Of a DNA stretch of 64,000 bases, positions 1,000-63,069 are shown piece by piece. The stretch comes from Mytilus galloprovincialis (lineage: Eukaryota; Mollusca; Bivalvia; Mytilida; Mytilidae): NCBI RefSeq assembly GCF_965363235.1, contig NC_134844.1, forward strand, positions 21,372,646 to 21,436,645, read 5' to 3'. The position numbers and the translations under genes were made by a program. Position 1 is the first letter of the stretch, and each line of letters begins with the position of its first letter. A model generated the notes under the pieces. It was not told where the DNA came from and did no database searches. It was given only the letters and a program-made list of their open reading frames with translations.

Positions 1000-3900
1000 C
1001 TGAAAATGCAAATACAATATTAAGTCATTTGTGAAGATTGTAATGAAAGAAGCATTTATCTATAAAGATTTGATGTTACAGAACACATGCTTTTTAAACT
1101 TTTTGTTGCATTTTCTTTTAAATCGAATTCACCTTGGCTTAAATGAACTGTTTAATACTAGTTAATAAAAATAATTTACATAAATGCATTAAAAACCAAA
1201 AGGTACTTTGATTTACTAATCTCAAGAACGTTTTAAACGTTGAAAGTAAAGGATATTTAAGAAATCATAAAACCAATGTGTTTTGTTAAACAAGTATAAG
1301 GCGAAAAGTTTCTATTTTTCATTTTTCTACTGGGATTCACCTAATGTGCCATTTTAAATTGTGTGATAATGGAAGACAAATTTACATAAATGCATTGATT
1401 GATACATTTAACCAAGGAACTTTATATTTAACAAAACCATATAAGGTAAAGGTAAACTTGTTCCGTCATGTTCTCTTCATTTCATAAAATATAGAGATGA
1501 AGACCTTCTATATAAACGTGTGTAACAAACCATGACCAAATACAAAAAAAGGCTGCTAGGTCGTTTGTATAAACAGATTAAATTGTACTGCAATCAAATG
1601 AACCACAAAATTGAAACATTCTTTGATAATAAAAAGAGTTATAGAAATCAAACCACTGACCTGAATTTTGCAACTCACAATTTTGTTAAAAAAAAAACGT
1701 TACGTCAACAAGAACAAGGAACAATTAATTCTCTTTTCGGTCTGCGTTTAAACGTTGCCAAATTCGTTGTTGAATCATAAGAGGCAGTGATTCCGATAAC
1801 TTAAGTTTCAACTGTTTGGTATATTTTTTTCCGGATAAAACAATACATGTACGTTGTCAGAAAATATAAAATTCAATTGTACTCGCTACGAAATAGGATA
1901 ACAGCTCGGCTAGCCTCGTTTCCCGTCCTGTTTCCAAGTTTCATTCAATAATATTTTCCGACAATGTAAATGGGGAATGTGTCAAAGAGACAACAACCCG
2001 ACCAAAGAGCAAACAGCAGCCGAATGAAACATAGAAATTCACTAGAATAATGTTCATGATTTTTTTTTAGGAAATTTTACAAATCAAATGGCCGCCGTCT
2101 TTAAAATGGCCGCATTTCCCGCAAAGTTTGAATTTCAGAGTGGATTCATAGCTGAACATGGTCTCAATGACATAAACTACACTTATGCCAAATTTCATGC
2201 TTTTACCACAATCTTCCAAAACTCTGCACAAAGTGACTGGACTGTGTCACTCTTACGTGCTTACATTATGCAGAACTTATTAACCGGGTTCTTCTTACAA
2301 AATATTGCTCAAACATAAGAATAGCAAAAAGGAATAAAATTGACTCTTTCTGAGTTTTACAATTACCATCATGAATTGATTGATCGACACGAGCTATTCG
2401 TGTTAAACTCGCTGACAATAAGATTTTGCGTTGTTAGATCTTAATATATCAGAATAGTTGTCTGATTTGTATTTTACCCACTGCTACACTATGAATTAGT
2501 GAGATTTCGCATTGAAGTAATGCATGTAATGCAGAAGATAGCATTGTATTGAGGCGGAACACACGATAATCTCATTTAAATTTATAATCTAGAAGTAAGT
2601 TACCTATCACATGCATAGTTACCCTAAAAGACGTTTTTCGTTTTCCAACTGGAAATTGTCCTTTTATCCATTCTTCCCCTTGATTCCCTGAAACTTCAAA
2701 CTTTGCTGTTTGTGATAACGTGTCAGTTTGTCCCATGTCTTCAATATATATCTTTAATTTTCCAACTTCTGTTTAAAAAATTAATAAATATGAATTTCTT
2801 GCTTTTTTATGAATATTAGTAATACATCATGTCAATGTGATTAAAAGGTCAACGAAGCCCGGTTATTTAATTTCACATTCAGATATATTGATTTCCCATT
2901 AACAATTCGATCTTTTCTGGTTTGCTTCCATCAATATATCCACCAGAACTAGATCATAAAGAAACAACAGTCAAGGCTTCCCTCACCTCATTTTAAGACT
3001 TATACCTCGAATTTGACATAAACAATCATCTCAGTACTGGAATCTATGACAAGCGAGACGATTTCAATTTGGAAATATTCAATTTCCTCCACCTAAATTA
3101 CAATATACCTACTCACCTGCATATGGGATATATATATTCCAAATTATTTGGTAATCAAGAGCTTTGAAGCTCCTACTCAGATTTTGTAAAACGTCCCCAG
3201 TGTCTGAGCAGAAAATTGATGAAAGAGGAGTATGTCAAGAACTTCTCATCCTTTTTCTATAAAAGTTCATCGGTACCAAGACCTTGTTGATAAATATTCC
3301 ATATCAACTTCACAAATAATACACGATGGTCTTGAATTATAGATTATTGGTACTGACGTAGTTTATTGTCTCAATAACGTGTTGTAATATTCTTTTATTT
3401 GTCTTTATGAATACTACTTGTATGGTTGAGTCCGTTTATGTGATATCCATTAGACGTGACTCTGTACCTATTTATCCCATCATCGTGCTATTCTTTTATG
3501 CTATTTTTTGTATTTTTGTCTTTCATTTTAACTAATGTGCGTTTTCTATGTCTTTTGTGCTTCTTTGTTACATATTTCTTTGTTTTTTATAGTGATTAAG
3601 ATTATAACACAATGTTGACTACTGTACCCCTATTTTTTACATTGTTACCTATTATGTCTGTTTGTTTTGTTCACATATCGTTTTCAATATAATAGAATTT
3701 GATGCGACTGTCATACAAGTGAGTGGTTTAGCTAGTTATAAAACAAGGTTCAATTAACCATTTTCTACATAAGAAAATGCATGAACCAAATCAAGGAATA
3801 TGACAGTTGTTATCCATTTGTTTGGTGTGTTGGAGCTTTTGATTTTTTCATTTGATTAGGGACTTTCCGTTTTGAATTTTCTTCGGAGTTCAGTTTTTTG

Positions 3901-6900
3901 GTCATTTTACTGATGAAAATTTTAAGGTTTGACACAGAAGTCTATATTGTGGGTCAATCGCATGAAAAAAGGATGGATTCTTTTTTTAAGATTGTATTAA
4001 AACATGTTTATCTGTACAAGGTTATTTAAGGAATGACTGTATAGTAATATCTTTTCTGTATATGAACGAATAACATAAAAAATGTGGTGCACACTAGATA
4101 ACCGGCGTATTCTGATAAGGAGTAAATTTTGATGACGTCGCGGTCACTTGACAAAATTGTGTCTATGAGCTGATATACAAAACACCTTCAGCCAATCAGG
4201 GGATGTGTTACATCCAAAATTAAATTATTGAAATATATGTTATAATTTCAAAAAAGATATTATGTTATTTTTCTAAAATTGTATTCTACATTTTTGTAAA
4301 TTATTTTAAAATCAATAAATTAGGTTTTAATTCGATTCCGTTAAAATTGTCACAAATATCAGTCTTTTACTCAAAAACGTTGAAAAGTTCCTTGGGTTTG
4401 ATTTTGTAGACAACGCTGTATATGCAATATGCCAAGACGTAAATAGAGTCCAAACCGGCCCATAAAGAATTTTCAGTTGATTGATGAAACAGGACAATTG
4501 TTTTTTTTTTTTTTTTTTAATTTACAGTCTTTGTAATGTTAAAATATTACCAATGTTCATGATTGTATTGAAACTCGTACAATTTAAACCAAAAAACAGG
4601 TTTTATTTAATAAATTCTTTATATACTATCTTAAAAAATTTTAATATTTTTTACGAAAATTTGCAGAAAAAAGTCAGAAGAAACAAATGGAAACATTTGC
4701 ATTGAAAAATAAAGACTGAGTAACAGGAATCTTACTTAAACTGGGATTGATACCAGGTGCTCCGGTAGGGGTATACCGATCCCGGTCATAAAATTGCATA
4801 TCGAGGAAAACAGCATCTTTCATAGATTTGATTTTAATACAAAGGAAATATAATCTCATTTTGGTGAAGCCATAATTACAATATTGCAACAAAAAGGACC
4901 AACAATAACAAAAACTTGATTAGAAGTAGTAATTCAATCAGTTTAAGTGATACCTTTTCTGAGATCATTGACATTTACCTAACAAGAGATCAAATAAAAT
5001 ATATGCACAATACCTTTTTATCAAAATTTGATTTGAAAAATTCAGGCATGGAATATTTGTTGGGCTGTTTTCTGCTTTTTGGTCGGTTTGTTGTCTCTTC
5101 GACACATTTCCCGTTTTCATTCTCAATTTTTTTTGTTGGAAAACACTACAATAGTTTCTAGACATATGAGCGATGCAGATGTGAAAATAATGACTTTATT
5201 AGTGTCCAAACTAAAAAGTCGAAGCAAAACTTGAACATGTGGTAACACTAAATTCCATACAGTATAACAAGCGATTACAAGCTATGACTAATATATTTGA
5301 AACCGCAAGTCTTTCATGGAATGGTAATTATAATGTGTTGAGCAATGCTTACGGTTTAATCCAACTACTCCCCACATATGATACCATATCTCAAAACATA
5401 GACCGCCAGTTGTAGCAGGATAGTTCCGAGATAATAGTCTGGCTTTGTCGTATATTTTTATAGGAGATGAAGATTCCATAAACATATAATGCCCTGAAAT
5501 AAACAAGAAATCCGATTCACATAGCCGTCATATGATGCAGTTATCAGTTCAGATAAACACATTACTTTATATGTTTGAAATACATGTATGTGTATTTTCT
5601 TTCTTATTTGCGCCTAATGCACAAGGAAAATGATTCTTCGTTTGAGTATACTTTATAACATTTATTCGGTAACGTATTCCTTTTTTTAATTTAAAAAAAA
5701 AAACATTTTAAAATTCATCGCCTTCGAAAAAAAAGTACTTCCATTTTCCTACCGTTTCCACCTTTCCCCAGGGTATGGTCATATTTCGGACCTGTGCGTA
5801 GACTAGGTGTAGTACCAGAATTCAATTTCCATTCAAAGTTTGCTTGTTTATCATGTTGCCAGCCACAAATATTTTCATCTTCAAAATCACAATAATTTTC
5901 TGGTTCTACATCTGCTTACAAAATAAAAGCAAAGAACTGCATAAGATAATTTACAAAATAACATTGAAATGCTTTATTCCAAATGTGTTACACACAAAAG
6001 CATGTACCATAGTATCAACTCTGCGATTAGTTTTCTTTTATAAATGTATTATTTCACTCAAATATTTTGCTTTATATAAAAAGTGATTTTTCAGTCTGCT
6101 GTCGAATGACACATAGAGGCGCTTGTCACATGAGCCGATTAATATTGTCAAACAGTTATATTTTTTTTGTTTTAAATTATGTGTTATATTTTAGACATTG
6201 CTCCAAATCTATCTGTCTTTTTTTTGTAATTGTCTGTCTTTTTTAAGTGGTATGTTTTATATGTTTTATTTGTTTTGTTTCGTTTTTCATATTAAATTAA
6301 ATGCTTACTAGATCTTATTTTTACATATGTGTTTTTCTATGAAGAATAAATATAAGATTTCTATTTATCAATATATCGAAATGTCAAACAGTAACGCCTC
6401 CATAGCTAGCTGTTGTATGGTGCCGGCATTTAAAATTCTTGTTGAAAACTCTCATGAAAACTAACAGTAATTTAAGTTAAGTCACAAGTAAATCTTCAAT
6501 ATATCTTTCTTGCTTTAAATTAAATATATCAATTTTGTTTTTGAAAGAATCAATTTAAAAAAAAGTTTGAATTCGGATGAACATCAAAGCATACGTACAT
6601 TTACAGGAAGGGACAGGGGCACTCCAAGCTGTACCATCACAAGTGATCAATGTCTCGCCTATTAATTTGAGTGTTGGAGCACATTTGAATTCTAGTACAG
6701 CACCTCCTTGATCTTTAGTGACTGTAAGATTTTCTGAAGACTGAATTTCATCACAACCGTTTCCTAAAAATAAGTAGTTTTCTGGGTTATACTTGTTTGT
6801 TTTAGGATATTTTGTCTGCCTTTAGAGATGATTATTCATAAAAACAAAACATTTTGATTTTTGATTATTTAGGCTTGATTTTATTTAGATCTCTTGTTTA

Positions 6901-7085
6901 TGATTGGATTTATTGGCTAAACATAGTGGGTGTATATTGTGCAGTTGTCGTATTTGTGGTTAGAATTGACAATAAAGTTGTTTTTAGTTTGAATATTTTT
7001 TTACTACATTTCATGAAACAGCTTTAACGTAAAATATATCAAAAATAGTTTTCTATCCCTATATTTTTGGCGATCAACTGAACTG

Positions 7086-7119
<34 letters not shown>

Positions 7120-7871
7120 CAGTTTATTATAGTGTCACGATCCAATATACATCATCATATACAATATAAAAATCTTTAAAACCATATTAGAATCCTGCCT
7201 TTAAGACATATGAGACACTTTCATCCTTTACAAACTAAAAAAAATTATACTATAATGTAAAAGAAATATAGTCACTTAGAACAGTTATCTATCTGAAAGT
7301 ATACTAGTACACAAACATTTCAGTAAATATCAATATTAAACATTTCTGCTAATGAATAAAGTGATTGAATGAATTCGAAAATATAAAAATGCATTAAAAC
7401 TGGACAGAAGAAACATCTTTATTATAAAAAAAAATAGTGTATCTATTGAAAAAAAGCCAGACTTTATTTTCCAAATTTCTTTATTTCATTGGCTATTTTC
7501 TATCAAATCATCATAGATAGAGAAAACGGTTCACAGCTTATTTATCCAAAAAATCCGATTCAGATATTTTAAAGTCAACATAACCGTAATAAGCAATCGA
7601 CAGTTGCCATTAATCTAAATGTTGTGCTTTTGACAGTTCTCATTGATTTAGATTTTGCGCTTTTGGATATTATTTAAAACAATAATAAACAGAGAGAAAC
7701 TACAAACAGCAAAATGTTATTAAGAAGACAAAGTTACAAAGAATTCAACAGATGAAAATCTGAAACTGTCTCCTTAAATGAGTTAAAAACCCATAGGTAA
7801 CTTGACGAATATTTTTGTCAGATATTCGGATTAAATCTGGTAGATGGCGAAATATTGATGAAAGTGTTGTA

Positions 7872-7914
<43 letters not shown>

Positions 7915-10900
7915 TTTCTATTTTACATTTTTTAACAAGTAAGCCACTTTTGAGTCTCTAGTGTATTTATCCTGAAATAAATTTCTTATTTTTAGATGGA
8001 CACTGCATGTTGTATAATGTTGCTCAAAGCACTTATTTTCAATAAAAGATATGTTGCCAATGTCGTCTTTATTATCAATTTGTATATAGCACAACTATTC
8101 GCTTTTATTTTAATATTATGATTGTTCAGACCGTGCATATGATTGGTTTACCGTTCACAACATTCTAGGGTTTTAATTCGAACTAACAAAATAGTTTGAA
8201 GTGTGTCTCCATTGCATTGCTGATTAACATTGTTGAATCATACATTTATGCTATTCAGTTATGTTGGTTTAAATAATTATAATGATAATAATAATAATAA
8301 TAATAATTTATTTTATTAAAGTGTTTCATTCTTGTCTACAGATTTTTATACAGATTATATAATATACATTGCACAATAATAGAATAAGACAAATACCCAG
8401 CCTAGATAGGCTTATGAGACACTATATATACAAATATATATATATATCTATTTAACAAATACAAATTGAAAAATATAGTAAAATGTTAAAAATGTTTAAA
8501 ATTATCCGGATATTTCACATCATAAAAAAAAATTAAAATAAGTAATTAAAAAAACATGTCTTTTAAAAATGAAAATGACAAAATTAAGTATGACGTAAAA
8601 TATTTATGATATGTGATAAAAAGAATATATTTTAAAGAGGTTATATAAACAGAATGTGAAGAATAAAATAAAGTAATCTTGTTGTTTTATTAAAAACCTT
8701 TTAGTAAAATAGTAAATAAATACAACATGAATGAAATGAATTAAAAAAATAAATAAAAAATGTAACTTTGACTTTTACGGAAATATACAATCAAGAGTGT
8801 AAATTGCTTTTCAGTGCGCGACGTCTTCTTATCATATTATGCACCAAGATAGATAACTCGTATTGTAATTCAGCATTCTGAATTAAAAATACAAATTGAT
8901 TAAAATCTGACTTTGTACAAACAGAATTATCCATGACCATAGCTCTGTGAAACAAATTAAACCTTAAGTCACTGTAAATGTCACAATTAATCAAAAAGTG
9001 TATCTCATCTTCTACAACATTATTACAAAAATGGACAAATTCTTTCTTCTAACGGTATTGGTGGTTTTGTATAACTAGCCGTCTCGACAGACAGAGGTAA
9101 AGTTCCACATCTAAGTTTACATAAATTACTTCGCAAGTGGCATGGCATTGCGTTAATAACATAGTGTTCAGGTTGAAGGTCCTAATTATAACGTCTATAT
9201 AGCCTCAACTTGTTTCCATTCACATTCGAATTGTCATTCCAAAGTTTGGTAAACCACAACTAAAATTGAGAATGGAAATGGGGAATGTGCCAAAGAGACA
9301 ACAACCCGACCATAGAAAAAAAAAAAACAACAGCAGAAGGTCATCAACAGGTCTTCAATGTAGCGAGAAATAACTTAATCACATTACAGTTCCAAGATCT
9401 ACGTTTTCGTTTCGACCATAAATGTATCGTATAGAAAGTACGAGAACTATCTGAATTTTCAAGTTTATAAAAGAATCTCAAAACTTCCAGGCTTTGTTTA
9501 GCATGACATGACAGCCATCCTAAATCACCCTGTATTGCAGTATTGCTAGTCAATTTAATCACTCCAAGGAATATTTTACTAGGCTAGCCCTGTTTTTGAA
9601 CGTTATTAATGAGTCTATGTTCAGTAAGTCCCCATATCGATGCACCATATAACAATATTGGTTGTACCAAACTTTCATACAACTTTTTCATTTCAACTTT
9701 GATACGTCATACCACCATAAGCGTAAAATTTCACAGTCAAATAGCTCAAAGCTCGACTGGCAAATTTAGAGAGTTCTTTGAAGGCTTTATTCCACGTTAC
9801 ATGTTCACTGAACCAAATACCTAAATATTTGTATGAATCTACATATACTAAACTATGACTTCCACAGAAAAAATGACTGTAGAACGTTCAACAGAGCTAG
9901 GCCTAAAATGTTTGACATTTGATTTACTACAATTAATACTTAATCTCAATTTATGGCACCATGCATTAACACAATCAAGCATACATTGTAAACTAGCCTC
10001 AGTTGGACCTAGTAAGACGATATCGTCTGCATATAGTAAGATGCTTACATTTATACTATCAATATCAATACCTTAATTAAAGACTTAATTTCTGTAGCTA
10101 AATCATTAATATACAGAGCAAATAGCGTCGGAGAAATCAAACACCCTTGTTTCACACCACATGAAACCGGAAACATTGACGTAAAGACGTTGTTAACACG
10201 TACAGAACATGTTGTGTTGTCATACAAAGATTTAACAGCATTTCAGATTTTTCCGTTAACACCAAAAGTTTGTAATTTAAACCATAAACAGTCCCGATTC
10301 ACATTGTCGAACGCCTTCCTCAGGTCAATAAAGCAGGCAAATGTTGGAAGACGTGAAAATTTACGGTCATTGATGATAGAGTACAGACTATATATTTGAT
10401 CTAGGCAGTTTCGCTTTCTACGAAATCCACATTGTTCATCAACCAATACACCCGAATCTTCAATCCAATCTCCAAATCTAGAATTAAGAATGTCACAGTA
10501 AACTTTACATGGCACTGACAAAAGTGTTATCCCACGATATGACAAAGGAAGCCGAACGTCTGTACTATTTGGTTTCACTATTGGATTTATAATTCCTTGT
10601 TTCCACTCAAGTGGCAAAACACCGTTTTCAAAACAAAATTTATTATCTTTTGTAACATATCGATACAGGTTTTGTTTTTTAGAACTTCTGCTGGGATATT
10701 GTCCATACCAGCTGCCTTTCTAATTCTAATCTGCTCACCGCTTTCTCAACTTCACAACGAGTGATGGGTTCGTTCAAACAAGATGTATCAACCAGTTCCG
10801 TGTCTGATGAAATTTCCCCCTTCTTTATTCTGTCTAGGTGACATTCATCATATAACATGCTGTCAGTTTGATCGTTGAACAATGTTTGATAGTCCGTTTT

Positions 10901-13900
10901 CCACCTTTGTAATACACATTCTTTGTCCGTAATAACTTCCCCAATATCATCAATAACTTCCCACGGTATTTGATCCCGCCTGTCATTCGAAATTCCAATT
11001 TTGCCAATTTGTTTCAAAAAATATCGAGAGTTCGGTTTTTCAAGTTCAGTCAGCAAATCCATTTGAAGTGTATTTTGATAAGTTCGTTTTGCTTTCCGTA
11101 AATGTTTGTCAAAATCGTTTCGGTCAAAACAATACTCTTGTTTTAATTTACGTTTAATGTTTGTGTGGTCACTACATTTAAGCCATAACTTTTCCTGTTT
11201 GCTTGCTGAGTCCCACTCCGTTTTGTAGTAAGTCACTCCAATAAGTCTTAAAGAAAGTCTTTGCCTTACTTTGCTTCGATTTACATTCATAATTGATAGG
11301 ACTGGTTACAGTAAGGCCGGCTTGATCCATTTCGTTCATTAAAAAGTTAGTGAAGGCCCCATATGCTTCGTTGATACATCTATTTGATGAAAGTTCATTT
11401 TCAATGCGGTTGACAGTTTCTCTGGTTCTTTTAACACAATCTTCCGAATTCAAGAATTATGTTGTTAACTTTGACGTATCATATCTTTTATTTCCCTTGA
11501 AATGTGTTTCAAATGCTGGTTCATCATTCGGACCTTCGTTCATAACAACAAATTTCTATTCAAAAATCGAATGATCCGGTGTTTTATCGGGCACGTCCAT
11601 ATAGTATCGGTCGGTTTAAATTTACTAGTGTTTATACTTTTTTAAACACACTCTTAAGAATCAGCACTAGGGTTAAACACTTCAGTCTGTCCAAAAAAAA
11701 ATCAAACTCGTTTTGCTTCTTGAAAGTTTTCAAAATGGGTTTGGATAAGATCTTCGATAGTTGGGATATATAAAACTTACTTACGTATACAAACAGGTGG
11801 TGGAAAATTCCATTTGTTGTCTGAACAGATGATAATTTTTTTTCCAAATAACTTGTATTTACGAAAGCATCTGAACCTTGCAATTTTGCCTCTATTTCGC
11901 AGTCTTACTCGACCGTGTGCTGGAATATCAACGTTTGTACAATTGTGTCCAAAAACTGAAAACAAAAATATAAAGAGATATACAAAATAGTATCTTATTG
12001 TTCCCATATTTGAGGTTCGTGTTTATAATACCATACTAGTAATCATTCATATTTATTAGCATCTAAAAATATACAAAAAATGTCGAGATAATAGTCAAAC
12101 ATCTTTGTTACGAGAGTACTGACTCGCTGGATGAAATGATACTGTTTCCAATAACTATTTTCACCAGCCCAGTAGTTAGCACTTCGGTATTGACAGGAAT
12201 ATCAATTATATCGTCATTTTTATAAATTTACAGTTTGCAAAATAATGAATTATTCGATATACTAAGGATCATTTTATACCAGATATAGATTACCTTAGCC
12301 CTATTTGGCACAACTTTTTGAAATATTTGGTCTTCAATGCTTTTCAACTCTATACTTGTTTGGCTTTTTTAACAATTTTGATCTTAGCGTCATTGATGAG
12401 TCTTATGTAGATGAAATGCGCGCCTGGCGTATCAAATTATAAGCCTGGTACCTTTGATAACTTTTTTGAATTCACGCCTGAAAGGTTTACACCATCAAAA
12501 TTAAAAAAAAAAGAACATCAAAGTACCAGTATATATTCTGAATAACAGCTATAATCAATATATACTGATTTTCAGAATACTTTTCAGATTTTACTGCATC
12601 AGTACAATATATATGGTCATTTGTTTTATTACAATTTTACTGTATACTTTTAAAATCCTTTAATTTTTTGTATATAATATTTTCCTACCACGTAACTGAT
12701 TTCGATAATTGTGATATGTGACCTACACACTGAAATCGGTATAACCATTATTGTCTAACAATATTAGCAGGGAAATTCGTGCATAATTTGGCAGGGAAAT
12801 CTAGAACAGAAGTCCCTTTTCCTACCGATAAATGAATTTATCATATAAGCGACAGGTGAATGATGAAGAGCACTTAAAATACATTTAAATTTCTATCACT
12901 GAAAAGTCATTTTTAGCAGATCTGAATGATTTTTCATTTTTCATTTTGTGGCGTCTTATATCTGACTATGTGGTATAGGCTTTGCTCATTGTTGAAAGTC
13001 GTACAGTGGCCTATAGTTGTTAAAATTTCTATGTCATTTGGTCTCTTGTGAAGAGTTGTCTCATTGGCAATCATACTACACCTTGTTTTTTGTACATATC
13101 ACCAAATAAGTATAAGAAATGCATACACAGTCTAGAAAAGCAAGACCTTTTGTCATGTTAAAAGCACAGAGTGTCTGTTTGGCCATTAGTGTTTATATGT
13201 GAGATGTCTAATGATCAGACATTGTTGTTTTGAAAAAGTAATTATCAAAGTCAAACGACAATGATTTAAGTTTTTTTTTCATGCAATACAATTTGTGAAT
13301 ATGGCCGGATCCAAGATATTTGAAAGAGGGTGTAGTTCCAGATAATTCGATATTTGCTGACGATTATACGGTAAAAAATTATATAGATATTGTAGAAAAC
13401 ATGAGATTTTCAAATTTATTTAGCGATCGAAAGAGGGTGTTCATCCTCTACCCCTGTATCCTCGAATGCACGGTTAGGTATACAAGGACAAAAATATCGT
13501 CCCATACATGAGTATAAGTAACGACGAAAAAGTACTATTTGATAAATATATCAATAATATGAATATCTGCCCACATCGAATTATTTCTAATTAAATTATA
13601 GAAAAAAAATATTGAAAAATGGTCGAGTACACCTTTTACATTCGGGTGCGTTCGAATCTACTTTAAACTTTAAAACTTGTAAACACCAAAAAAAAAGACA
13701 ACCTTTTCGCTTCGGATTTCATTATTTTAATATTTTCATGCTAAATGTTGTCTTCGTAGTTTTTAAAATTCTTTGAGAAGAACTAAAATATGGGTCAAGT
13801 GAAATGACAAGAAATGATGGGTGTATTTGATTACAAGTTGCTAACTTACTTATTCCATTATAATATTTGTGTTAATAATATCATTCAAAGTTTAATGACA

Positions 13901-18542: not shown

Positions 18543-19312
18543 TCACACACTTTGTTGAACATTCTTAGTGTAAAGTACTTGACCTTGATCATCAGAAGAT
18601 TTTCGTCCCCAAATGTTCCTCCTCTTGTAGATAAGAATGGAAATAAGAACAACGCCTAGGGTAATAATCAAACCTACCCCTGCGATACCTGCTATAAATT
18701 CAGGTCTAAATAGCAGTGTTTGATCAGCTCTAGTCTGCAGAGATGAAGACGTTGTAAAAACAGATTTTTTAAGAGGAGAAATAAGATTTCGTTTAGTGAC
18801 AACCACATTTTGAAACGAATTTCCCTCGTCTGCTGGATATATAACAAAACTCTCCGTTGATTTTTCAATATTTTCTGTAATTGGCTTTACATGTATGTCA
18901 GATGATAACTCAACGCCTTCATGCTTGGGTATCATAACCAAGACTTCTGAACTTGCGGGTAACGGGATTGCTTCAACTGTAGTCAAAGAACCTTTGATAT
19001 GCACATGGATGTCACGTGTCGATGTAGGGATGGTGTTTTCTATTGGAACAATTGTTTTCATAATATTCAAAATGTGCCGCTCTGGTTTAGCTTCTTTATT
19101 TGAAGGTAATTTCGTATCCGATTTATTAGGAGTATGAACCTTGTCGTCACTTAGTCTGGTTATTTCACTACCATTATCTACGCTGACTTTAATGGCATCG
19201 TTAAACAGGACATCTTTAGAAGAACTGTTGTTCATGGGTTTATCTGTTACGGTATTGTTCTCTTGAGATAAAGTTGTTGTTACATAATCGACTTCACTCT
19301 CAAGATCTGTAT
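18543..19312 (-). CDS. Gene B exon 8: stalk, membrane helix, cytoplasmic tail
   Basis: 770 bp from acceptor attttcag to TGA at 18543. It opens DTDLESEVDYVTTTLSQE, then a Ser/Thr-rich extracellular stalk of about 200 residues with Asn-X-Ser/Thr sites (NNT, NNS, NGS, NKS). The helix is FIAGIAGVGLIITLGVVLIS plus ILIY, and the stop-transfer is KRR. The short tail contains one tyrosine (VLYTKN). Confidence 0.85.
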
Positions 19313-22300
19313 CTGAAAATTAAATAAAAAGATTTAAATCAGTGTACTTCCCTAACTTTCTGTGGGGAATATTATAATGCTATGCAATAAAATCTGATAT
19401 CAAATGAACAGCGATTTAAAGATTTTATCTTGAAAACTGCATAGATATCAAATATTGTCATAACGAACCAAAATCCATTTTTTTTTAGTTTAAAACGAGT
19501 ACCGAGAAAAATCATTTGGTGTGAGGATGTCTTACGGTTGAAAACGGTTTCATGAAAAATGAACAATTATTTTATGTATAAGTACAGTGATTATTGTAAT
19601 TTTAAATGGAGAAGTCATAGTCATCTGTGTAATCAAGGAAGGCGGTCATCCTGTGTGTTGGAAAGCTTAAATTTTCAACTTTCGTATATGGTTTTTCTTT
19701 ACACAACTTCTTCAAGTAAAGGCTTGGTTTTTTTTTAATAATCAAGCATTATCAGATTATAAAGGCTACAACGTGCATTGAACGTAAAATATTTCACAAT
19801 GTCGTGCATGCGTGATCAGCTTTCTTCTTCAGTTTTAATGTGTATTTAAATTATTATTTTTTTTTTTTAGTTTTGTTTAGTTAAAAATTAGACTGACAAG
19901 TTAAGGGACGACATCAAAAGATCGATGTAGGATAAAAAAAAACTTAAATCAAATAGTTTGGTTTTTTTTTGGAGGGGGGGTTTAAAATTCAACAAGTTTT
20001 GTGTATCTAAAATCGATTACATATATTCCTATTGGTAAATCAATTTTTCCCAAATTAAGTTAAGAGGGGGGTGGGGTGTCAGTGAAAAAACTATGTGAAT
20101 TAAGTTTTTTATCCTACATTGAACTTTTGATGTCGTCCCTAACTCTACTAGGTAGGATGCAAATATAGAAAAAAAGAATTTCATTTTGGATAGTGCAGGT
20201 TATTAAGTTTAAAAACTCAAATTAATCTACTAGTCTTATACTAAGTTTTATACAGAAAAAAAAAACAATAGAGAGCTGATGAGTGGAATGAAATATTCAA
20301 TTCAAACTTAATTCCAAATAATAATGTCTAATTAAACCTACCATTTGTACATCTGTAAAACTTGAAATCATCGACGGCTATGTCAGCTGTATGACTACGC
20401 CCTCTTGTGGCTTGTACAACAATCTATAATGATAAAAACGTGACGGTTAGATTCACAAATCATTTCAAATATTACAATATAGATATTTTGTACAAATACA
20501 GATGTTATATTTCCCTAAGTTTTAGTTTGTTACCCGGATTTGTTTTTCTCAATCGATTTATGAATATCGAACAGCGGTATACTACTGTTGCCTTTATTTA
20601 TAGTTACAACTGCATACCTACATGTAATTTTTAAAATAAGTTACTGAAGAATTACATACAAAAAAAAGTAAAATCACAAAAATACTGAACTCCAAGGAAA
20701 ATTCAAAAAGGAAAGTCCTCAATCAAATGGCAAAATCAAAAGAACAAACACATCAAACGAATGGACAACAACTGTCATATTCCTGACTTGGTACATGCAT
20801 TTTCTAATGTAGAAAATGGTGGATTGAACCTGGTTTTATAGCTAGCTAAACCTCTCACTTGTATGACAGTCGCATCAAATTCCATTATATTGTCGCCGAT
20901 GCGTGAACAAACAAACAGACACAAATACATTGCATATACACAATTCATTAAACATGTAAGAAGAAATGTAACTCTTGGATCTTACTTTAATTTCGTTTTA
21001 TTATTTTTTAAATCATAATCATGACTTACGATAAAGAATCTTCTCAATCGATTTAAAATATTTTAACATCTGTTAAATGTGTAAATAATAGACTATCATA
21101 ATTCTATATGAATGGTTTTTTACATATTATGTAATTTCCTTTAATCAATGTGTTGTGTATTGCTTTGTAAAAGGTGAGACATTAACTAAATATTGTATCT
21201 GTTGTTTTGCTTTGTAAAAGATGAGACGTTGATAAAATGTTTTATTCTACTGCATTATTTCGCCTTTTTGCTAAAATTCAAATAATTTGGATAGGCAAAA
21301 TCAAAATAGAATATTTGTTAGAAATGTCAATTATTTTACATTAGTTTGAAAGCTATTTACATTCAAAATTGTCTGAAATCCTAATTATGAATTATCGCTA
21401 ATTCAAGAACCATACTCCGGAAATAGCATGAACAGAAAATCAAGGACATAACAGGTGAAATTTCATATCCGCAAGACTTTACTAAGGCTCTAAAATGCAT
21501 ATGTCGCTCACCGTGCATATTCAACATTCATATCATTTTGTTCCCGTAAGATTTCCCCAAAAGATAATGGTTTTCAAAATAATAGACAAAACTTTTTACC
21601 ATATGTTCTATTTTTACAATGGCGGCCATATTGAATTGGTTAGCAATCGGGTCATAGGACACATTTTTAAACTAGATACCCTAATTATGATTTTGTGACA
21701 AAGTTTCGTTAAATTTGGCCCATTAGTTTCAGAGGAGAAAAATTGTGCAAACGGACAACGGACGCCAAGTAATGAGAAGAGCTCACTTGTCCCATTAAAT
21801 TAGGGCCAGGGCCCTCTTATTTTGTAGGAAAAATTGGTTGATTATATAGGAAATCACTGAAGCATGACTGGAGCACCCCCTTCTTTAAGGGCAGTCATCC
21901 CCTCCCTTTCTAAAAAGTTCTGGATCTGCCATTTTCAGATAGCGCATGACAAATAAATAACCCTATAGTTAACAAAAACAGTGCGAGAAAAAAAATATCA
22001 ACTTCTTATTTTTTTTCAAAATTAGTTTTCTTTCAAAGAACTGCTTTATATTTGAATATCTCACTTGAAAATCTCCTTTCTGTCTTTCAATAAACACGTC
22101 GGCTTTGAGCCACTCGTTTCCTTGGTTACCACCAATGAGAAAGAGTTGACTTTCCACGTGATCTTGCCCTGATGGTATTCGCAGGAGAATCTCTAGGTTA
22201 CCCATATCTACAAAACAAATAAATAGGATATATATATATATACATATATATATTGTTCGTTAAGAGATTAAGAGATGAATAATAAAAAATATGGAAAATA

Positions 22301-25300
22301 ACACTGATTTATTTTCATGTGTATCCACTGTGCCTATCCAAGCTATAGAAACTAGTTATGGCTTTTGTAAAAATGCCTGACTTGTTTATAATATTCGTTA
22401 ACAAGTGAATCTGTGAGCTACAGTGACTGCTCTCTAATAATGCCCCCGCCCGCCAAGAGTATACGATAAACAGGAAGTTGTTGAGTGATCAATCTGAAAA
22501 CGCATCACACGGTATAACTGACTTATATAAACCCTGAAACCAAATTTCAGAAATTATTATGATGTAGTTCCTGAGAAAGATGCGACGATAACTATTTATG
22601 GAACGGACAGACGGACTGATGGATGGATTGATTGGCGGATGAATGAATGAACTAACGGATGGATGGACGGACGGACGGACAGAGGTAAAACAGTATACCC
22701 CACTTTTAAAGCGGGGGTCTGAATAATCTTTTTATTTCTTGTATGGTCAGTCGCAATGATGTTTGCAAAGAAGTGAAGTGCTTATATAATATGTTAGGGT
22801 TGTGCAATTTATACGTCTTTGACGCCTTTGACGCTAATCACCAAGTTTCTAATGTTATGATAATGTAGTAGCAAACATGTCTAAGTGACCATTCCATCAA
22901 GATATATTCATATGCAAGCAATAGCAGCGTTAAGTAAACCACACAGCCAGTTACAATACGGTTCTAAGATATTGTAAGAGGAGTGGCTCGTTTAATTGTC
23001 TGGTTTAACAATGTTCTTTAACAGAAGTAACACCAAATAAAGACCGTTGGTAAAATAGCGAGTCATTTTAGTAGATTGAGATGTATATTGCATGATATAT
23101 AAGCAAGGTCGAGTGTATCGGATTGATTGCGTTCGGGACGAGTCAGTACATATATGTTACAGGCATTTTCTAAATTTAGGCATTTTGTAAAATGACTGAA
23201 TTTTTAGGCATTTTCTAAAATGCCTAAAGTTGACAGGCATTTTATAAAATGCCTAAAAAAAACCTAGTCATTTTGTAAAATGCCTGAAATTTTTAATGAA
23301 AATTTTACAAATTGCCTGGTCTGTTTCAGGCAAATTGTGTAAATATGAAATACATGAAATAGATGATAAAACGATATTGTAATGCTACAAAAAGGGTTGA
23401 GTAAAAACAATTTAAGATTATTCTTTAAAAATGTAACAAGCGTTAATACGTAAATCTGTAGGCTTCTAGGAGCCTGAATTGCTTATCTTGCAAAATATTG
23501 AAAATAAAAGTATGATACACTCAAGGAATATTTTAAAAATTGATTAAGTAAAATAAAGGACAAAATCACATATTAAGATTGAGTTGACGACTTCTGTTGC
23601 CATTAAGTTGCCTCATAGGCCTATTGAATATGCATGGAATATTTGCCACTTGAAAAGCATGCATCATTCAATATCTCATACTATTACTTGTTATCTGTGT
23701 TCAAATGAAGAGGTTATCAAAAATGAAAGAAGGCATGCATCAGACTCAATGACAAAACAAGCTGTCAGCTTGGAAATCTGTCGGAAAGAGTTTTGACAGA
23801 GGCAGATATTGGAGCGAATGTATTAGTTGCATTTCCCCATGTGGATCAACTGTTGTTACTGGAACGGAAGAGCATGGTTATCAACTGGAAATTAAAGATG
23901 GAATACTACGTGGACCTTACACTAGGAATCACTTTGAACAGTCTGTCAGTAACTTTATTGCTATTCAATCTGTAAATTATGATAATGAAATATCCTTCAG
24001 TAAAGCTCTCAGTTAAGTTTCTTTGTGTGATGGTCAGGGTTACACAAATTGTGGCTGTAGTGCTAATGGTGAGACTAAATGTAACACTAAACGTCTTTGC
24101 AAAAACTCAGAAAAAATGTATAACAGTTGCCGTCATCCAATCATTACATGTAGCAAAAATAATTGTCATCTTCAATGTTAATGTAAATTAAATTGCATGC
24201 TATATTTAATGATAGAATAAAATAATCTGTTTGATATTTCCAGTCGTTAAATTTTGAGCACATTCCATTCAGTTTTAGTCTTTTAGGCATTTTCTAAAAT
24301 GCCTTACAATTTTTTCAGGCATTTTATAAAATGCCTGAAAAATATAGTCAATTTGTAAAATGCCTAAATCATGCAGGCATTTTAGAAAATGCCTAAAAAT
24401 TTCAGTCATTTTACAAAATGCCTAAATTTAGAAATTGCCTGTAACATATACATATGGTGATATATGAATTTTTAAAATTCAGTTACATGTAATATGCAAT
24501 TACAAGTTTAATTTGCACAGAAGAGAAACTTCACTTCCAACCAGCTTCTTCTGGTCCTAACAAGTAAATGTATATATTGATCGGTCATATTGAATTTTAA
24601 TTATTTTTGTTAATATGTAGTTACAAGTTTAATTTACACAGAAGAGAGACATCACTTACATCCAGCTTCTTCTGGTCCTAACATGTGATACCAGAGCTGA
24701 AAACATCGACGACTTTTATACCATGGATAGACAGGAGATAACAACCTACTGTAGTGTCCATATCGACTAGGTGTGGACGATTCCATATAGATATAATGAC
24801 CTGTCAAAGAACAATATGGTTTAGTTATTACTCTCATACATACAGATTCTACTGTAGTGTCCATGTCGACTAGGTGTGGACGATTCCATATAGATATAAT
24901 GACCTGTTAAAGAACAATATGGTTTAGTTATTACTCTCATACAAACAGATTCTACTGTAGTGTCCATGTCGACTAGGTGTGGACGATTCCATATAGATAT
25001 AGTGACCTGTCAAAGAACAATATGGTTTAGTTATTACTCTCATACAAACAGATTCTACTGTAGTGTCCATGTCGACTAGGTGTGGACGATTCCATATAGA
25101 TATAATGACCTGTCAAAGAACAATATGGTTTAGTTATTACTCTCATACATACAGATTCTACTGTAGTGTCCATGTCGACTAGGTGTGGACGATTCCATAT
25201 AGATATAATGACCTGTCAAAGAACAACTTTGTACAGTTAGAATTACTCTCACTGAAACTTCACAATATACATTTCATATCTCAAACGCTCCTTTTAGATT

Positions 25301-28300
25301 GGTAAATACATATGTACAAATGTTTAATAAAGGGAACCAATAGTTAAAATAACAGCATGAGCTAGCAAGCAAACCAACGATACCAGCTAATCACATTAAG
25401 CATTTCAATCTGACAACAATTGGTGAAGATGAACTAAACTTATCATAAAATTTATATACTTATATAGTGTAATATCAAAAGCTTTAAATTTTCTCGAGTA
25501 ATATAATTTTATAACTATGAATTGGGACGTATATATGATTCTGATAGGCAATGCGCAATCACTTTAAACGGTTGATTTCGGGATGATAAAAAATGGAAAC
25601 AACACGTTATTTATTTTATGCGACCGAAGCCGGTGCTTTTGTGGATTTTCTTTCCTCGTCGAATATTTGAAAGCTGAGGATGTATAACAAACAAACAAAA
25701 ATAACTGTTTTCCCCCGACTTGGAGCAGAAATACTAAGAAAATTATGTGTTAAATCTGCCATACACAAAACACACAAAAAAATTACTTCATACTAAAATA
25801 TGAACTTGCCACAATTACACATAATTATACTGTCAAGATTGAAAAAAATATTGGCGTGGCTTTATTTAAACCTGATGCCTAGTAATGTTGCATTAATTAA
25901 GTGATCATACTTATATAAGGTGAATCTTATCGAATACTAATCTTTTTAAATTTGATATACTGGTTTAACAAATGAGGCCAATAAACATTTGCAAAGTTAC
26001 AAAAAAAAAATGATAAACATAGTACCATAGATAAGTGTAACGTCTTCATTTGAAACGTTTCGTGCAAGACTAACCGTTATTGTTTTCCGAACCCAACGTG
26101 TGGTCAAACTTGGGACCAGTTCGTTTAGTATCTGTTTCTCTAATGTTAATCAGCCAATCAGATTGATGACCTATGTCCTGTGTCCATCCACATAAAGAAT
26201 GTTGTTCAAAATTACAACTAACAATATCAACTGCAGCTACAAGAAAGCATATAAAATATAATCAAGTCTGTGTGTTCTAACAAAGAGTTGTCTCATTGGT
26301 AATCATACCATATCTTCTTGTTTATATATTATATTAAATCATGATACGGATATAGTACAAAACATAATACTTTTATATTTGATTTTATAAGGCACTGTCA
26401 TTTATTTTCATTACACAACGGCTTTAAAGAAGGTGGTTTCATTCATCTTGCAATCCAACACTGCCATCTTAAAAGATTAAGATAAATATCTTCGGTCCAA
26501 CAAGGACTAAGATTAGTTGCCATATTTATTGAATTAATATGTATTTGTTTAAGCCCTCCGTTTGTGTAATCTTGGACATGATACGGTAATCCTCATCCCA
26601 GATGTAAGATAGTATTATAGACACATATCTGCTCTTTCATCGGGTTGTCGTCTCTTTGATATAATCCCCATTTCCATTCTCACATTTTATGTACGATCCT
26701 TATCTTTCTGATACTTACATGGTAAAAAAAACACAATTCAGTTGTAATATAACAATACAATAAAAAAAAGTTTAAGAGTGGTTCAAACCTAACTTACAGT
26801 GGCAGTTTGGGAGTGGTTCAAACCTAACTTACAGTGGCAGTTTGGGAGTGGTTCAGACCTAACTTACAGTGGCAGTTTGGGAGTGGTTCAAACATAACTT
26901 ACAATGACAGTTTGGGAGTGGTTCAGACCAGTGTTGTCCGTCACAGCTGATCGTACTCTCACCATCCATTATATACCCAGGATCACATGTCACAAGTACA
27001 AGAGAAGATTCAGATAATACATCGATTTCTCCATTTTCTACAGATGTGAAGTCGTTTTGGTTGCATCCTTTAGCTAAAACATATGAATGAATAGTTAATA
27101 GCGTATGATCTAAAAATAGATATTATTAAGCAAATCTAATTATGATTGCAGATACAAATTTTAATAAGTGTGGTTAATTATTCTGAAACTCGAGCAGGAC
27201 GTATCAGTTCTGCAGTCTCATCTTTTTAGATAAACTTTCCTTAGGTTATATCACAAAGACATTGTACTAATTAAATCTTTAAAAAGATAGTTTGATGTCG
27301 AAAAAGTATCGAGGAACTATTATTGTATCAAAAATAAAAATGCAAGTTCATTGTGTAGGTTCAAACTCTTTGATGTTTCATAAAAAAAAAGGGGGGACCT
27401 TAAAATTGTGACTTGGACTAGTACTGAGAGTTGCCTTTATTAGCACTCATACCACATCTTACATCTATAAATAAGCAATCCAGAACTTTTGTATATGTCC
27501 GCGACTATGTTGTGTTAAAGGTATCGGTTCTCTCTATGGACAAACGAGTTCATGCATTTATTGGCGTATTACATTTCAGTATATCTTGTGACAAAAAAAA
27601 AATAACAAATGTAAAAAAAGTTCTGTGACCAAATCAGTGGAGGATATAGAAATTTGCATTATGTGGGGGAGGGGGGGGGGAACCCTCTACATCCGCCTCT
27701 GGTAGTAGAACTTACCATGACATATTGGAATTGGTGTTGTCCATGTGTCAGCAAAACAATAGGCTTCATTTGAACCGAACAGATCAAATCCGTCGTCACA
27801 CTCATACTGTATAGAATTATAGGGCTGACTTTTTAATGTCGCTGTCCCATGAAGTAAATATTCTTGAACGCAATTAGAGTACACTGAAAAATGTATGATA
27901 TGTGAAATAATTGTATTTCGTTTGTTACTAACAAGGTGAATTTCTGCTTAGTTAGAACATAGAAGTTAAATATTTAAATATTACTGCAATGGTCAGAAGA
28001 ACAATCAGACTGTGACAGAACAGAAAAATATTTATCAAATCTTTAACTAAAGAATCCGTACAATATGTAAATGTAAATTTTTGCCTGTTGAAAAAGTATT
28101 GATAGAAAATCCATTTCATTTGATTTGGACGTCATGAATATTAATTCTGCATTTGTACCAAAAACAGAACGTAATAAACATGATAAATATCACCAATTCC
28201 ATAGGATTTCCTAATTGTTTTCGTACTACTTGGAAAATCCATCGCCTTTCGTTTTTTTAATTACCAAAAAGTTAGTTTAAAAAGATCTAATTAAACTAAA

Positions 28301-28541
28301 ATGAATATTTTAAATTATTATATTTCCCAATTTTGATGGCAAAATTCTTTAAAATTAACTTTTAATTCACATCATAATATTATATTTATTTCAATATGAT
28401 TTATGATGTTTGCTGTTGAAAAAACTAAAAACCCTTTAAGGTCAAGTTTTAATATGAAATAATAAAATAAATCAGCTTACCTCGTATTGTTAATACCGAA
28501 ATTAAATAATAACAAAAATACAGCTGTATTAAAATCTCCAT
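18543..28541 (-). CDS. Gene B: sushi-sushi-MAM type I membrane protein, complete
   Basis: Eight exons on the minus strand: 28481-28541, 27716-27883, 26903-27073, 26075-26236, 24660-24800, 22065-22207, 20342-20423 and 18543-19312. They sum to 1698 nt (565 residues) and every phase matches. Order: signal peptide (1-20), sushi 1 (about 21-76), sushi 2 (77-133), MAM (134-309), Ser/Thr/charged stalk with N-glycosylation sites (310-514), one membrane helix (about 515-538) and a 27-residue tail starting KRR. The likely place is the plasma membrane, with sushi and MAM outside. The role (adhesion or recognition) is inferred from domains; I recognise no named orthologue. It is the upstream neighbour and tandem duplicate of gene A. 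Unusual features are the three tandem duplications around its splice junctions. Confidence 0.87.
19905..20139. mobile_element. MITE, GGGACGACATCAAAAG ends, TAA target duplication
   Basis: Left GGGACGACATCAAAAGATCG and right AACTTTTGATGTCGTCCC are inverted, and the match continues inward through ATGTAGGATAAAAAA. The flanks are TAA on both sides. The 235-bp interior has T and G runs and is non-coding. It sits in gene B intron 7; probably PIF/Harbinger-type by TSD. Confidence 0.75.
20342..20423 (-). CDS. Gene B exon 7, MAM domain end
   Basis: 82 bp, phase 0 to 1. It encodes IVVQATRGRSHTADIAVDD and FKFYRCTNG, the closing MAM strands (ADIAVDD) and last cysteine. Confidence 0.85.
20668..20930 (+). 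repeat. Mussel interspersed repeat family C
   Basis: Same blocks as 15205-15520: 'AAATCACAAAAATACTGAA', 'TGACTTGGTACATGCATTTTC', 'ACCTGGTTTTATAGCTAGC'. A companion stretch at 20495-20600 resembles 15925-16010. Confidence 0.65.
21480..21815 (+). repeat. Bivalve interspersed repeat ('AGCTCACTTGTCCC' family)
   Basis: Carries 'GCAAACGGACAACGGACGCC' and 'AGAGCTCACTTGTCCCATT', ending 'AGGGCCAGGGCCC'. These are hallmarks of a widespread bivalve repeat ending CTCACTTGGCCC. The following 21820-22060 has a G/C-poor tail with 'CTGGATCTGCCATT', a possible diverged end of the GGCGGATCCAG MITE. Confidence 0.5.
22065..22207 (-). CDS. Gene B exon 6, MAM domain part 3
   Basis: 143 bp, phase 1 to 0. It encodes YMGNLEILLRIPSGQD, LFLIGGNQGNEWLKADVFI and ERQKGDFQ. 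The acceptor is gttttgtag and the donor is caa|gtgaga. Confidence 0.85.
22500..22725 (+). repeat. Bivalve repeat with GGAC/GGAT tetranucleotide run
   Basis: Blocks 'CCTGAAACCAAATTTCAG', 'GATGTAGTTCCTGAGAAAG', a GGAC/GGAT-rich run at 22615-22683 and an end 'CAGTATACCCC...GCGGGGGTCT'. I know this layout from many mussel introns. It is non-coding. Confidence 0.55.
23151..24450 (+). mobile_element. DNA transposon remnant with palindrome-array ends and KRBA2-like C-terminus
   Basis: The ends are inverted repeats starting TATATGTTACAGGCA. Each end holds an array of palindromes of the form AGGCATTTTNTAAAATGCCT. Between them are pieces of a protein tail: NERRHASDSMTKQA, EADIGANVLVAFPHVD, YQLEIKDGILRGPYTRNHFE, then a Cys-rich stretch (NCGCSANGETKC, RLCKNSEKMYNSC, PIITCSKNNC). 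These match the C-terminal region of KRBA2-like integrase-type transposases common in bivalves (Ginger-type DDE proteins), from memory. The catalytic core is absent and the frame is broken more than once. It is a non-autonomous, decayed copy in gene B intron 5. Confidence 0.7.
24490..24563 (-). repeat. Duplicate of the exon 5 donor region
   Basis: About 74 bp matching 24611-24684, including CCAGCTTCTTCTGGTCCTAA. In this copy the donor (acttac on plus) reads acttcc, so the splice site is lost. Confidence 0.85.
24660..24800 (-). CDS. Gene B exon 5, MAM domain part 2
   Basis: 141 bp, phase 1-1. It encodes GHYIYMESSTPSRYGHYS, LLSPVYPWYKSRRCFQLWYHM and LGPEEAG. Its acceptor side is copied four more times to the right (103-bp units to about 25245). 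Its donor side is copied once to the left (24490-24563). Confidence 0.85.
24748..25245 (-). repeat. Five-copy 103-bp tandem repeat of an acceptor plus exon 5 start
   Basis: Copies begin at 24748, 24851, 24954, 25057 and 25160, an exact 103-bp spacing. Each carries tctttgacag|GTCATTATATC and about 50 bp of the MAM exon. Only the leftmost copy continues into the full exon. Read from a distal acceptor, the copied exon piece soon meets TAA in frame. Confidence 0.92.
25246..26074. other. Gene B intron 4, remainder
   Basis: AT-rich sequence with no recognised repeat, exon or palindrome beyond short A runs. Confidence 0.4.
26075..26236 (-). CDS. Gene B exon 4, MAM domain part 1
   Basis: 162 bp, phase 1-1. 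It encodes CNFEQHSLCGWTQD, SDWLINIRE and RTGPKFDHTLGSENNN. The acceptor is tttcttgtag and the donor is g|gttagt. Confidence 0.85.
26768..26936 (-). repeat. Four-copy 35-bp tandem repeat of an exon 3 end plus splice donor
   Basis: Each copy, read on the minus strand, contains GAACCACTCCCAAACTG then CCACT|gtaagtta. The first copy is the true exon end (donor at 26902). Extra donors lie at 26867, 26832 and 26797. The 35-bp period is not a multiple of three, so use of an extra donor would shift the frame. Confidence 0.9.
26903..27073 (-). CDS. Gene B exon 3, sushi domain 2
   Basis: 171 bp, phase 1-1. It encodes KGCNQNDF, VLVTCDPGYIMDGE and SCDGQHWSEPLPNCH. The donor t|gtaagtt, together with the last bases of the exon, is repeated three more times downstream (see the repeat at 26768-26936). 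Confidence 0.85.
27716..27883 (-). CDS. Gene B exon 2, sushi domain 1
   Basis: 168 bp, phase 1-1. It encodes YSNCVQEYLLHG, IQYECDDGFDLFG, AYCFADTWTTPIPICH: four cysteines plus W, the sushi pattern. The acceptor is catttttcag and the donor is g|gtaag. Confidence 0.85.
27884..28480. other. Gene B intron 1
   Basis: About 600 bp of AT-rich sequence. No repeat family or exon is recognised. Confidence 0.45.
28481..28541 (-). CDS. Gene B exon 1, signal peptide
   Basis: ATG at 28541. The peptide MEILIQLYFCYYLISVLTIR has a hydrophobic core and precedes the donor g|gtaag. The phase-1 exit fits the sushi exon. Sequence upstream to about 28700 would hold the promoter; no clear core motif is visible. 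Confidence 0.82.
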
Positions 28542-40450: not shown

Positions 40451-40464
40451 TTGAGGAGACACAA

Positions 40465-40695
40465 TTTTTCAAGAAAATATCTACCGTGGAAACGAATATG
40501 GTGGTCCTCTTTTTTTCAAATATCGACAAAGGCATGTGGGTAGTTAAATAGGCGTCTCAATTTTCTACACACAAATTGTAGCACATAGACAATTTCTCAA
40601 AAAAAATATCTACCGTGGAAACTATTATGTTGATCCTATTTTTTTTCTTCAAATATTGATAAAGGCATGTGGGTAGTTAAATACGCGTCTCAAGT
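40465..40695 (+). repeat. Two-copy tandem repeat, 129-bp period
   Basis: 'ATATCTACCGTGGAAAC' through 'AAAGGCATGTGGGTAGTTAA' occurs at 40479 and again 129 bp later, with some divergence. The MITE lies just left of the first copy. Confidence 0.8.
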
Positions 40696-42204
40696 TTCTC
40701 CGTCGTTAGTCTCCCCTTTTAGACCTGTTCATTTTATTTTGATTATATTTTTTGTGATAAGCGGGAGAACTTATCGAGGGAGTACATTAGAAATGAAAAA
40801 AATAGATGCGAATGATTTGTTTAATCAAAGTACTGAAGTACTGATCATCGGATGACCCCAAGTTCTTGTGGATGGTCAAAAGCACTTGCTTCAGAAAAAA
40901 AATCACGTATCTCTTTACCTGAAACGGAGGTTAATGTACAGAGATATATTTTTTCTGAGACAAGTTCGTACGTGGATGATGAATAAATGACATGAAATGC
41001 AACTTCACCGCAAAAACAATTATATTGTAGTGATACAAATCAGTATACACTGATTTGCTGTTATATATTATATCAAAATAACAGTTACATGTACATGTAT
41101 ACATGTATATGATTTCCATTTGTATATCATTTTTTTTCTACTATTCTAATAATAGTGCTAAGCAAGTGCATGGTGGACACTTTTCTGTAAAAAATCGATT
41201 TTTCTAAAAATTGGATATGAGTAGGCATTCATATTTTCCCGCAAAAAACAATTACAGAGTTACCGGTCCTTATCGATATTGTCTCAAAACGTTCTTTTAG
41301 ATATTCTTCCGCATGCTTTAACACAATTTTTCGGTACGTGTGCATTGATATTACCAATGATTTTTTACTTAAATTAACTACCAAACATTTCCATATCATT
41401 AATTTATGTTGTAAACAAAAATATTTTTATCAGTATAGTATTCATTGAAGAGATGTACTTATATCAAACGATAAGTAATGTCATTTTGCACTCGTTTATG
41501 TGCGCTTATATATTATGTTTATAGATCGGTTACAAACCAAAAACTAATTTAAATAATGGAAATCTAGGCGATAGCAATAAAACGAAATGACCCCGAGGTC
41601 ATCGCGATGTTATAAAAACACCACTAGGGAACTGTAAGGGTAGATGTGCATTTGCAGATATATTGTAATGCAAGTGCATGCAGAGTTGAAATTTTCATTT
41701 ACAATAATGTTTTGCCAGTACATACAATTAAACAATAAAACGTTTAGATTATTAGATTATTTCAAGTCTGCAAACGTAGTTCGTTTGTTCGCGTTTAGTC
41801 CCCAGCGATCTTTACTATATCATGGAAGTCTGGTTTAACTAGTTGTTGGATTCGGGAGTTAATAATTCACTGCCATAATTTAAACCTATATACTTCTCAT
41901 CTTCGTATTATTTTTTGTTAAATTATTGCATAAGTAAATATAAAAGCGGATGTCATTTCAACTTTGACGTCCAGTCATTCATATTGTAAAAGAACTTGCA
42001 TGTACCAATGGATTAATATAATGATAAAGTTCGAAAGACGTATGCAAATCTTTTACTGTATAATAGTACAAGGCATTCCTATGGAGATGTTAACATTGGA
42101 ATATAATACCATTCAGGAGCACCTCATATCATCCCTGCTTTGTTTAGTTTGTATTGAATGTCGAATAACATGTTATTTGAAACATATTCTTTTATTTATT
42201 TTAG
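40696..42204. other. Upstream region of gene C; first exon not located
   Basis: Should hold the promoter and signal-peptide exon of gene C unless these lie further left. An open frame (41964 to the exon at 42205) runs through the acceptor but does not look like a clean signal peptide. No convincing ATG-hydrophobic-GT exon was found. Confidence 0.35.
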
Positions 42205-58425: not shown

Positions 58426-58465
<40 letters not shown>

Positions 58466-62351: not shown

Positions 62352-62358
62352 CAGTTTA

Positions 62359-63000: not shown

Positions 63001-63069
<69 letters not shown>

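Follow-up and report, generated by a model that had tools for sequence, protein, structure and literature searches.

Tandem duplications over three exon-intron junctions of a sushi-MAM gene in Mytilus galloprovincialis

Introduction

A minisatellite in a human interferon-induced transcript reportedly provides multiple splice donors, as the title of its description states; the gene is said to be 6-16 (IFI6, G1P3), which fits the paper that cites it. Internal tandem repeats at exon-intron boundaries have been described in human genes located in segmental duplications (De Grassi and Ciccarelli 2009, PMC2812944), and that report gives 162 exon alignments with boundary repeats as the unfiltered count and 27 intron modifications as the number after manual filtering. 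UBC and VCX3A have arrays of dual-specific splice sites in which the intron falls within the array and spans a whole number of units (PMC10809524). Our study concerns gene B, a sushi-MAM gene in a stretch of 64,000 nucleotides of the M. galloprovincialis genome (contig NC_134844.1; C7:21372646-21436645 in the genome used, of 1,384,861,812 bases or 1.38 Gb), in which three tandem duplications each cover an exon-intron junction. This whole stretch is referred to as the window; its numbering is used for all gene-B coordinates, and L-numbers denote loci fetched from the same genome for comparison.

Results

Structure of gene B and its junction-spanning duplications

The protein of gene B comprises two sushi exons, a MAM domain across four exons, a stalk, and a short tail; a signal peptide and a single transmembrane stretch were recognized by eye. 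In Pfam searches of the open frames around the exons, exons 2 and 3 matched Sushi and exons 4 and 5 matched MAM, all above the curated cut-off, and exon 6 reached 20.3 bits against Pfam MAM, below the curated cut-off of 26.4 bits. The Pfam scan gave no convincing match in exon 8, and in the Rfam scan of the window no family reached the gathering score. The introns measure, in order, 597, 642, 666, 1274, 2452, 1641, and 1029 nt, such that those flanking the sushi-2 exon have 642 and 666 nt and those flanking the MAM2 exon 1274 and 2452 nt.

18543..28541, reverse strand: gene B, 8 exons, 565 aa, phases in agreement and no internal stop
28541-28481, reverse strand: exon 1
27883-27716, reverse strand: exon 2 (sushi), Pfam
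27073-26903, reverse strand: exon 3 (sushi 2), Pfam; its 3' edge is the outermost, productive donor
26236-26075, reverse strand: exon 4 (MAM), Pfam
24800-24660, reverse strand: exon 5 (MAM2 exon), Pfam; its 5' edge is the outermost, productive acceptor
22207-22065, reverse strand: exon 6, MAM match below the cut-off
20423-20342, reverse strand: exon 7, tblastn match to paralogs
19312-18543, reverse strand: exon 8

The initial annotation had reported three tandem duplications in this gene, each over an exon-intron junction, and both Tandem Repeats Finder (TRF) and alignment find them present:

26769..26929, reverse strand: 35-bp tandem array, four copies and a partial fifth (TRF 4.6 copies, 92% matches)
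24746..25251, reverse strand: 103-bp tandem array (TRF 24746-25226, 4.7 copies, 98%)
24490..24686, reverse strand: 121-bp twofold duplication over the MAM2 donor, by alignment

Each 35-bp unit holds about 23 nt of the sushi-2 exon end, the donor GTAAGT, and about 6 nt of intron. The four GTAAGT donors follow positions 26903, 26868, 26833, and 26798, the last three being extra, and the donor positions given in the annotation (26902, 26867, 26832, and 26797) are correct as the first intron bases; identity around the extra donors is 0.89-0.92. In the 103-bp array, whose similarity extends past the TRF limit to 25251-25258, every copy contains a pyrimidine tract, an AG, and about 60 nt of the MAM2 exon start. 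Its five AG acceptors, at which AGGT is found, precede positions 25212, 25109, 25006, 24903, and 24800, the first four being extra; a branch-point-like TAACTAAAC is present in copies 2-5, with other sequence in its place in copy 1. A genome search returned one match to this locus. The copies of the 121-bp duplication lie at 24611-24686, with the real donor, and at 24490-24565; they are 89% identical over 76 bp with a start-to-start distance of 121 bp, and about 104 nt of the unit can still be aligned between them. In the 35-bp array all three extra donors, and in the 103-bp array all four extra acceptors, agree with the claim that the extra sites are intact; the 121-bp duplication does not, since its second copy reads GG in the donor place and is a dead donor.

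Since the divergence between copies differs among the arrays (0.89-0.92 identity, about 98%, and 89% over 76 bp, respectively), separate events are indicated. The duplicated splice sites lie 35, 103, and 121 nt apart and so fall outside NAGNAG and short tandem sites, and a junction-overlapping minisatellite, that is, a unit with a consensus splice site and an exon edge, describes the arrays with 35-bp and 103-bp units; the third is twofold only.

Palindromic 29-bp AGGCATTTTATAAAATGCCT repeats, similar in both orientations, were also observed at two intronic places of gene B:

24281..24429, reverse strand: 29-bp palindromic repeat array, intronic, spanning no junction of the gene model
23175..23293, reverse strand: second 29-bp palindromic repeat array, intronic, spanning no junction of the gene model

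Coding consequences of splice choice

Of the 20 donor by acceptor combinations, only that of the two outermost sites (26903, 24800) yields the 565-aa protein. The remaining 19 reach a stop after 147, 166, or 214 residues, which leaves 389-1004 nt between the stop and the last junction, and the expectation that the extra sites, if used, would cause early stops was thereby confirmed. Use of the productive sites keeps the exons as short, and the introns as long, as the arrays allow. In the L032 paralog, the sushi exon ends, as judged by eye, in the same phase as at the productive donor of gene B, and homologous exons in other MAM loci begin at the residue that matches its outermost MAM2 acceptor. 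The latter comparison uses MAM2-type starts following an AG: among 32 motif sites, 12 were omitted for an open upstream frame, and the 20 with a closed frame represent 18 distinct acceptors, gene B included; the motif itself requires the residue start after AG, and the agreement with the gene B acceptor is partly built in. A different arrangement, an in-frame 60-nt cassette within the 103-bp unit from the acceptor to GTATGT/GTTTGT, was rejected: its frame is open, but an intron of 43 nt between adjacent copies would be required.

Paralogs and junction arrays elsewhere in the genome

Gene A, a sushi-MAM paralog at window positions 1-12000 on the same strand, has 46-49% identity to gene B in the first two MAM exons, and further paralogs are found at L032-L035. 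In these five regions, no array was detected over a matched exon edge; in L035, the sushi-2 edge was not located and the MAM1 acceptor is flanked by satellite. The idea of an ancient regulatory array common to the gene family was accordingly discarded. The satellite of L035 (4360-8000 of C7:27312001-27320000) is intronic, is made of 26-bp and 40-bp units, the latter with at least 88.6 copies, and ends about 15 nt before a MAM1 exon that is, by eye, 33 nt shorter than that of L032, in frame.

To place gene B in its genome, we sampled 80 sushi exons with 350 bp on either side (69,167 bases), chosen from 150 PF00084 places, taking both exon edges as splice junctions by assumption. A 2821-aa intronless open reading frame and most near-identical neighbors were excluded, and the near-identical pair L111 and L123 was retained. 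This set contains 12 arrays, of which three span a donor by script (L059, L085, and L100) and a fourth, L107, which the script classed as intronic, by eye, and it is counted here as spanning; over the acceptors of the 80 exons, no array was detected. The second set, picked for likeness to gene B, consists of 30 MAM/paralog loci with 93 exon pieces (140,820 bases) and contains 27 arrays, one of them appearing twice through overlap of loci. Two span a junction by script: L036, a 56-bp array with a dead second donor, and L038, an array of about 29 bp at the MAM2 acceptor with six intact AGs, the real one included. The decayed 45-bp array of L027 runs into the MAM2 acceptor; it is intronic by script and is counted as spanning because its unit aligns to the real acceptor better than 500 of 500 shuffles do, with part of the score contributed by the array's own end. 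Inspection by eye was limited to arrays near exon edges, at four sushi and five MAM loci; L018 and L020 were inspected and left out of the count, the unit of L020 having an acceptor-like stretch.

Since gene B, L038, and L027 all have arrays at MAM2 acceptors, we retested this junction on 40 new MAM2-type acceptors, none of which has a spanning array. The MAM2 acceptor as a special site was consequently rejected, the first set having given 3 of 19 (the 18 distinct acceptors from the motif search, including gene B and L038, plus L027 added by hand). In total, spanning arrays occur outside gene B at 7 of about 380 sampled junctions (approximately 2%), with five independent origins, the denominator being 160 sushi edges, about 180 edges of the MAM set (90 tblastn pieces), and 40 acceptors.

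L085, L100, and L107 form one sushi-exon family with a common donor-spanning unit of 68 bp. A DNA search found six places in the genome for this family, with approximate copy numbers of 4 in L085, 3 in L100, 2-3 in L107, 2 each in L174 and L175, and 1 in L176, the last three counted by eye. Copy number at the same exon edge therefore varies between paralogs, both here, from 1 to about 4, and between the arrays of gene B and the five regions with none. Extra donors are dead in the third array of gene B, in L036, in L059, and at one of the two extra sites in L107; those of L085 (3/3) and L100 (2/2) are intact, as are those of L174 and L175 when read by eye.

Other sequence features were noted along the way. 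Very long open frames of repeated sushi and MAM domains, of 2821 and 3519 aa, lie near multi-exon relatives at C1:110309607-110317967 and C7:25760086-25770339. Sushi exons at near-constant spacing occur at C8:19686017-19690440 (1064 bp), C11:21971554-21975636 (about 783 bp), and C8:59083179-59087046 (about 925 bp), and these are probably whole-exon tandem duplications. Elsewhere in the window, positions 58141-62370 hold a tandem array with units of about 905-1036 bp that are 91-94% alike and contain palindromic AAGGTCTTTCC motifs, and a direct duplication of 691 bp (62359-63049 and 63311-64000), 99.9% identical and with ACAC microsatellites, reaches the window end. In the duplication at 40461-40699, no junction was recognizable by eye.

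Discussion

The arrays of gene B are probably minisatellite duplications that the gene tolerates because the outermost sites still give an intact protein. We infer the mutational mechanism, the splice choice, and the neutrality of the copies as follows. Three independent local tandem duplications would have arisen by replication slippage or unequal crossing-over, followed by growth in copy number, and their coverage of exon-intron junctions would be accidental. The outermost donor and acceptor would still bound the original exons because the extra copies have been absorbed on the intron side. With introns of 642-2452 nt, the exons would be recognized by exon definition, and since this favors the sites closest across the exon, which are the productive ones, the duplications would remain largely silent. 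Silent copies would then drift, part of the extra sites being kept intact and part lost; the mixture of dead and intact extra donors that we observed fits such drift.

Support for the choice of sites comes from Carranza, Shenasa, and Hertel (2022, PMC9225289), who report that sites closest across the exon are favored when introns are long and that, in minigenes whose two 5' sites are identical and whose introns have 365 nt, only the upstream site was used. This exon-centric rule, together with the intron lengths of gene B, predicts the productive donor. That work describes the same architecture as gene B, with equal competing sites and introns over 250 nt, in a different setting, a human database and minigenes, gene B belonging to another animal. 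It is important to consider that several points weigh against a silent arrangement. For 3' splice sites of long introns, the same source describes an upstream preference that is just reduced, with no clear reversal, which makes the prediction for the acceptor weaker, and the intron-side acceptors could be used. In addition, the 35-bp and 103-bp arrays have seven extra sites, all intact and with apparent strength equal to the real ones, and GT is kept in 8 of 9 extra donors of the L085 family (L174 and L175 by eye), where the surroundings in L085, L100, and L107 share only 0.50-0.84 identity with the real site. This last observation leans towards retention, but the cases are too small in number and too closely related for a judgement.

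The initial annotation had offered a splice-regulating arrangement as one reading; the dead extra donors in the third array of gene B, L036, L059, and L107 speak for drift. An alternative is that the inner sites are partly used, leading to early stops and decay, with copy number tuning the protein level as an unproductive-splicing dimmer. The stops that 19 of 20 combinations meet 389-1004 nt before the last junction, the intact extra sites of the 35-bp and 103-bp arrays, and the human precedent of a minisatellite with multiple splice donors, recorded in its title, are in its favor. We nevertheless regard it as unlikely, given that little use of the inner donors is expected under the exon-centric rule (PMC9225289), that the extra donor of the third array is dead, and that such arrays were undetected in the paralogs. 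A broader proposal appears quite unlikely: junction minisatellites, at about 2% of sampled junctions, would be a common class of this genome with variable copy number, and some would act as heritable dimmers, in which the number of intron-side decoys would fix how large a fraction of transcripts is removed through early stops and one gene would combine donor decoys with acceptor decoys.

The initial annotation had also suggested a mutational hot spot at exon edges, where splice junctions or transcription would promote the start of tandem duplications. Simulated placement of the five arrays of gene B puts at least three on junctions with P=0.0047 when single units are placed, which speaks for a hot spot, but with P=0.096 for whole arrays; the statement that this coincidence is hard to expect by chance is thus weakly sustained by the first value and undercut by the second and by similar arrays at other genes. 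Three junction arrays in one gene are unusual (P from 0.005 to 0.10), and since gene B was picked for its arrays out of 1.38 Gb, they are not strong evidence of a special cause. Counted by loci against the single-unit null, the sushi set has 4 versus 1.4 expected (P=0.039) and both sets together 7 versus 2.4 (P=0.009); however, this null treats three related sushi arrays as three, and the count by loci overstates because those three loci belong to one family. By origins, a cautious count in which the null holds all arrays, the sushi set gives 2 versus 1.4 (P=0.41) and both sets 5 versus 2.4 (P=0.087); the pooled null (mean 2.4) assigns P=0.21 to at least four and P=0.032 to at least six. Whole-array placement in the sushi set expects 4.7, where the script saw 3, and the fresh MAM2 acceptors gave 0 of 40. 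With no significant excess by origins over 80 sushi and 29-30 MAM/paralog loci, a hot spot is not demonstrated: an excess of junction-spanning arrays is possible but at most modest, these counts do not support a strong hot spot, and we consider the explanation very unlikely. That the assembler expanded or invented the repeats is most improbable: the arrays are known from a single assembly with one match to the 103-bp locus, but the copies have private variants (GTATGT/GTTTGT, GACAG/AACAG, CAT/CAC), the arrays are short (160-510 bp), and comparable arrays occur at other loci and are common to paralogs.

Gene B is a natural counterpart of experiments with duplicated splice sites, its donor being present in four equal copies and its acceptor in five that are nearly equal, and its splicing could reveal directly if exons in this animal obey the exon-centric proximity rule. 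The rate of about 2% of junctions suggests many comparable natural tests in one genome, and gene predictors may choose the wrong splice-site copy at such arrays.

Comparison with known systems

Gene B shares with the human splice-donor minisatellite the multiplication of donor sites by a minisatellite overlapping a splice junction. The human donors are provided in a transcript, according to the title, and gene B is known from DNA; gene B, moreover, has duplicated acceptors as well as duplicated donors, and its inner sites are frame-breaking. PMC2812944 describes units that are likewise of minisatellite type (30 bp and 4 copies on average) with copy-number variation between paralogs, and it differs in having transcript evidence where we have genomic sequence. 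As in UBC and VCX3A (PMC10809524), splice signals lie in tandem repeats, with AGGT present in gene B at the acceptor of the 103-bp unit; unlike the introns there, the 666-nt and 1274-nt introns of gene B are not multiples of the 35-bp and 103-bp units. Within the openly licensed literature searched, this kind of arrangement is already known, and what gene B adds is the presence of three duplications in one gene, the involvement of both donor and acceptor, and a rough rate for the genome.

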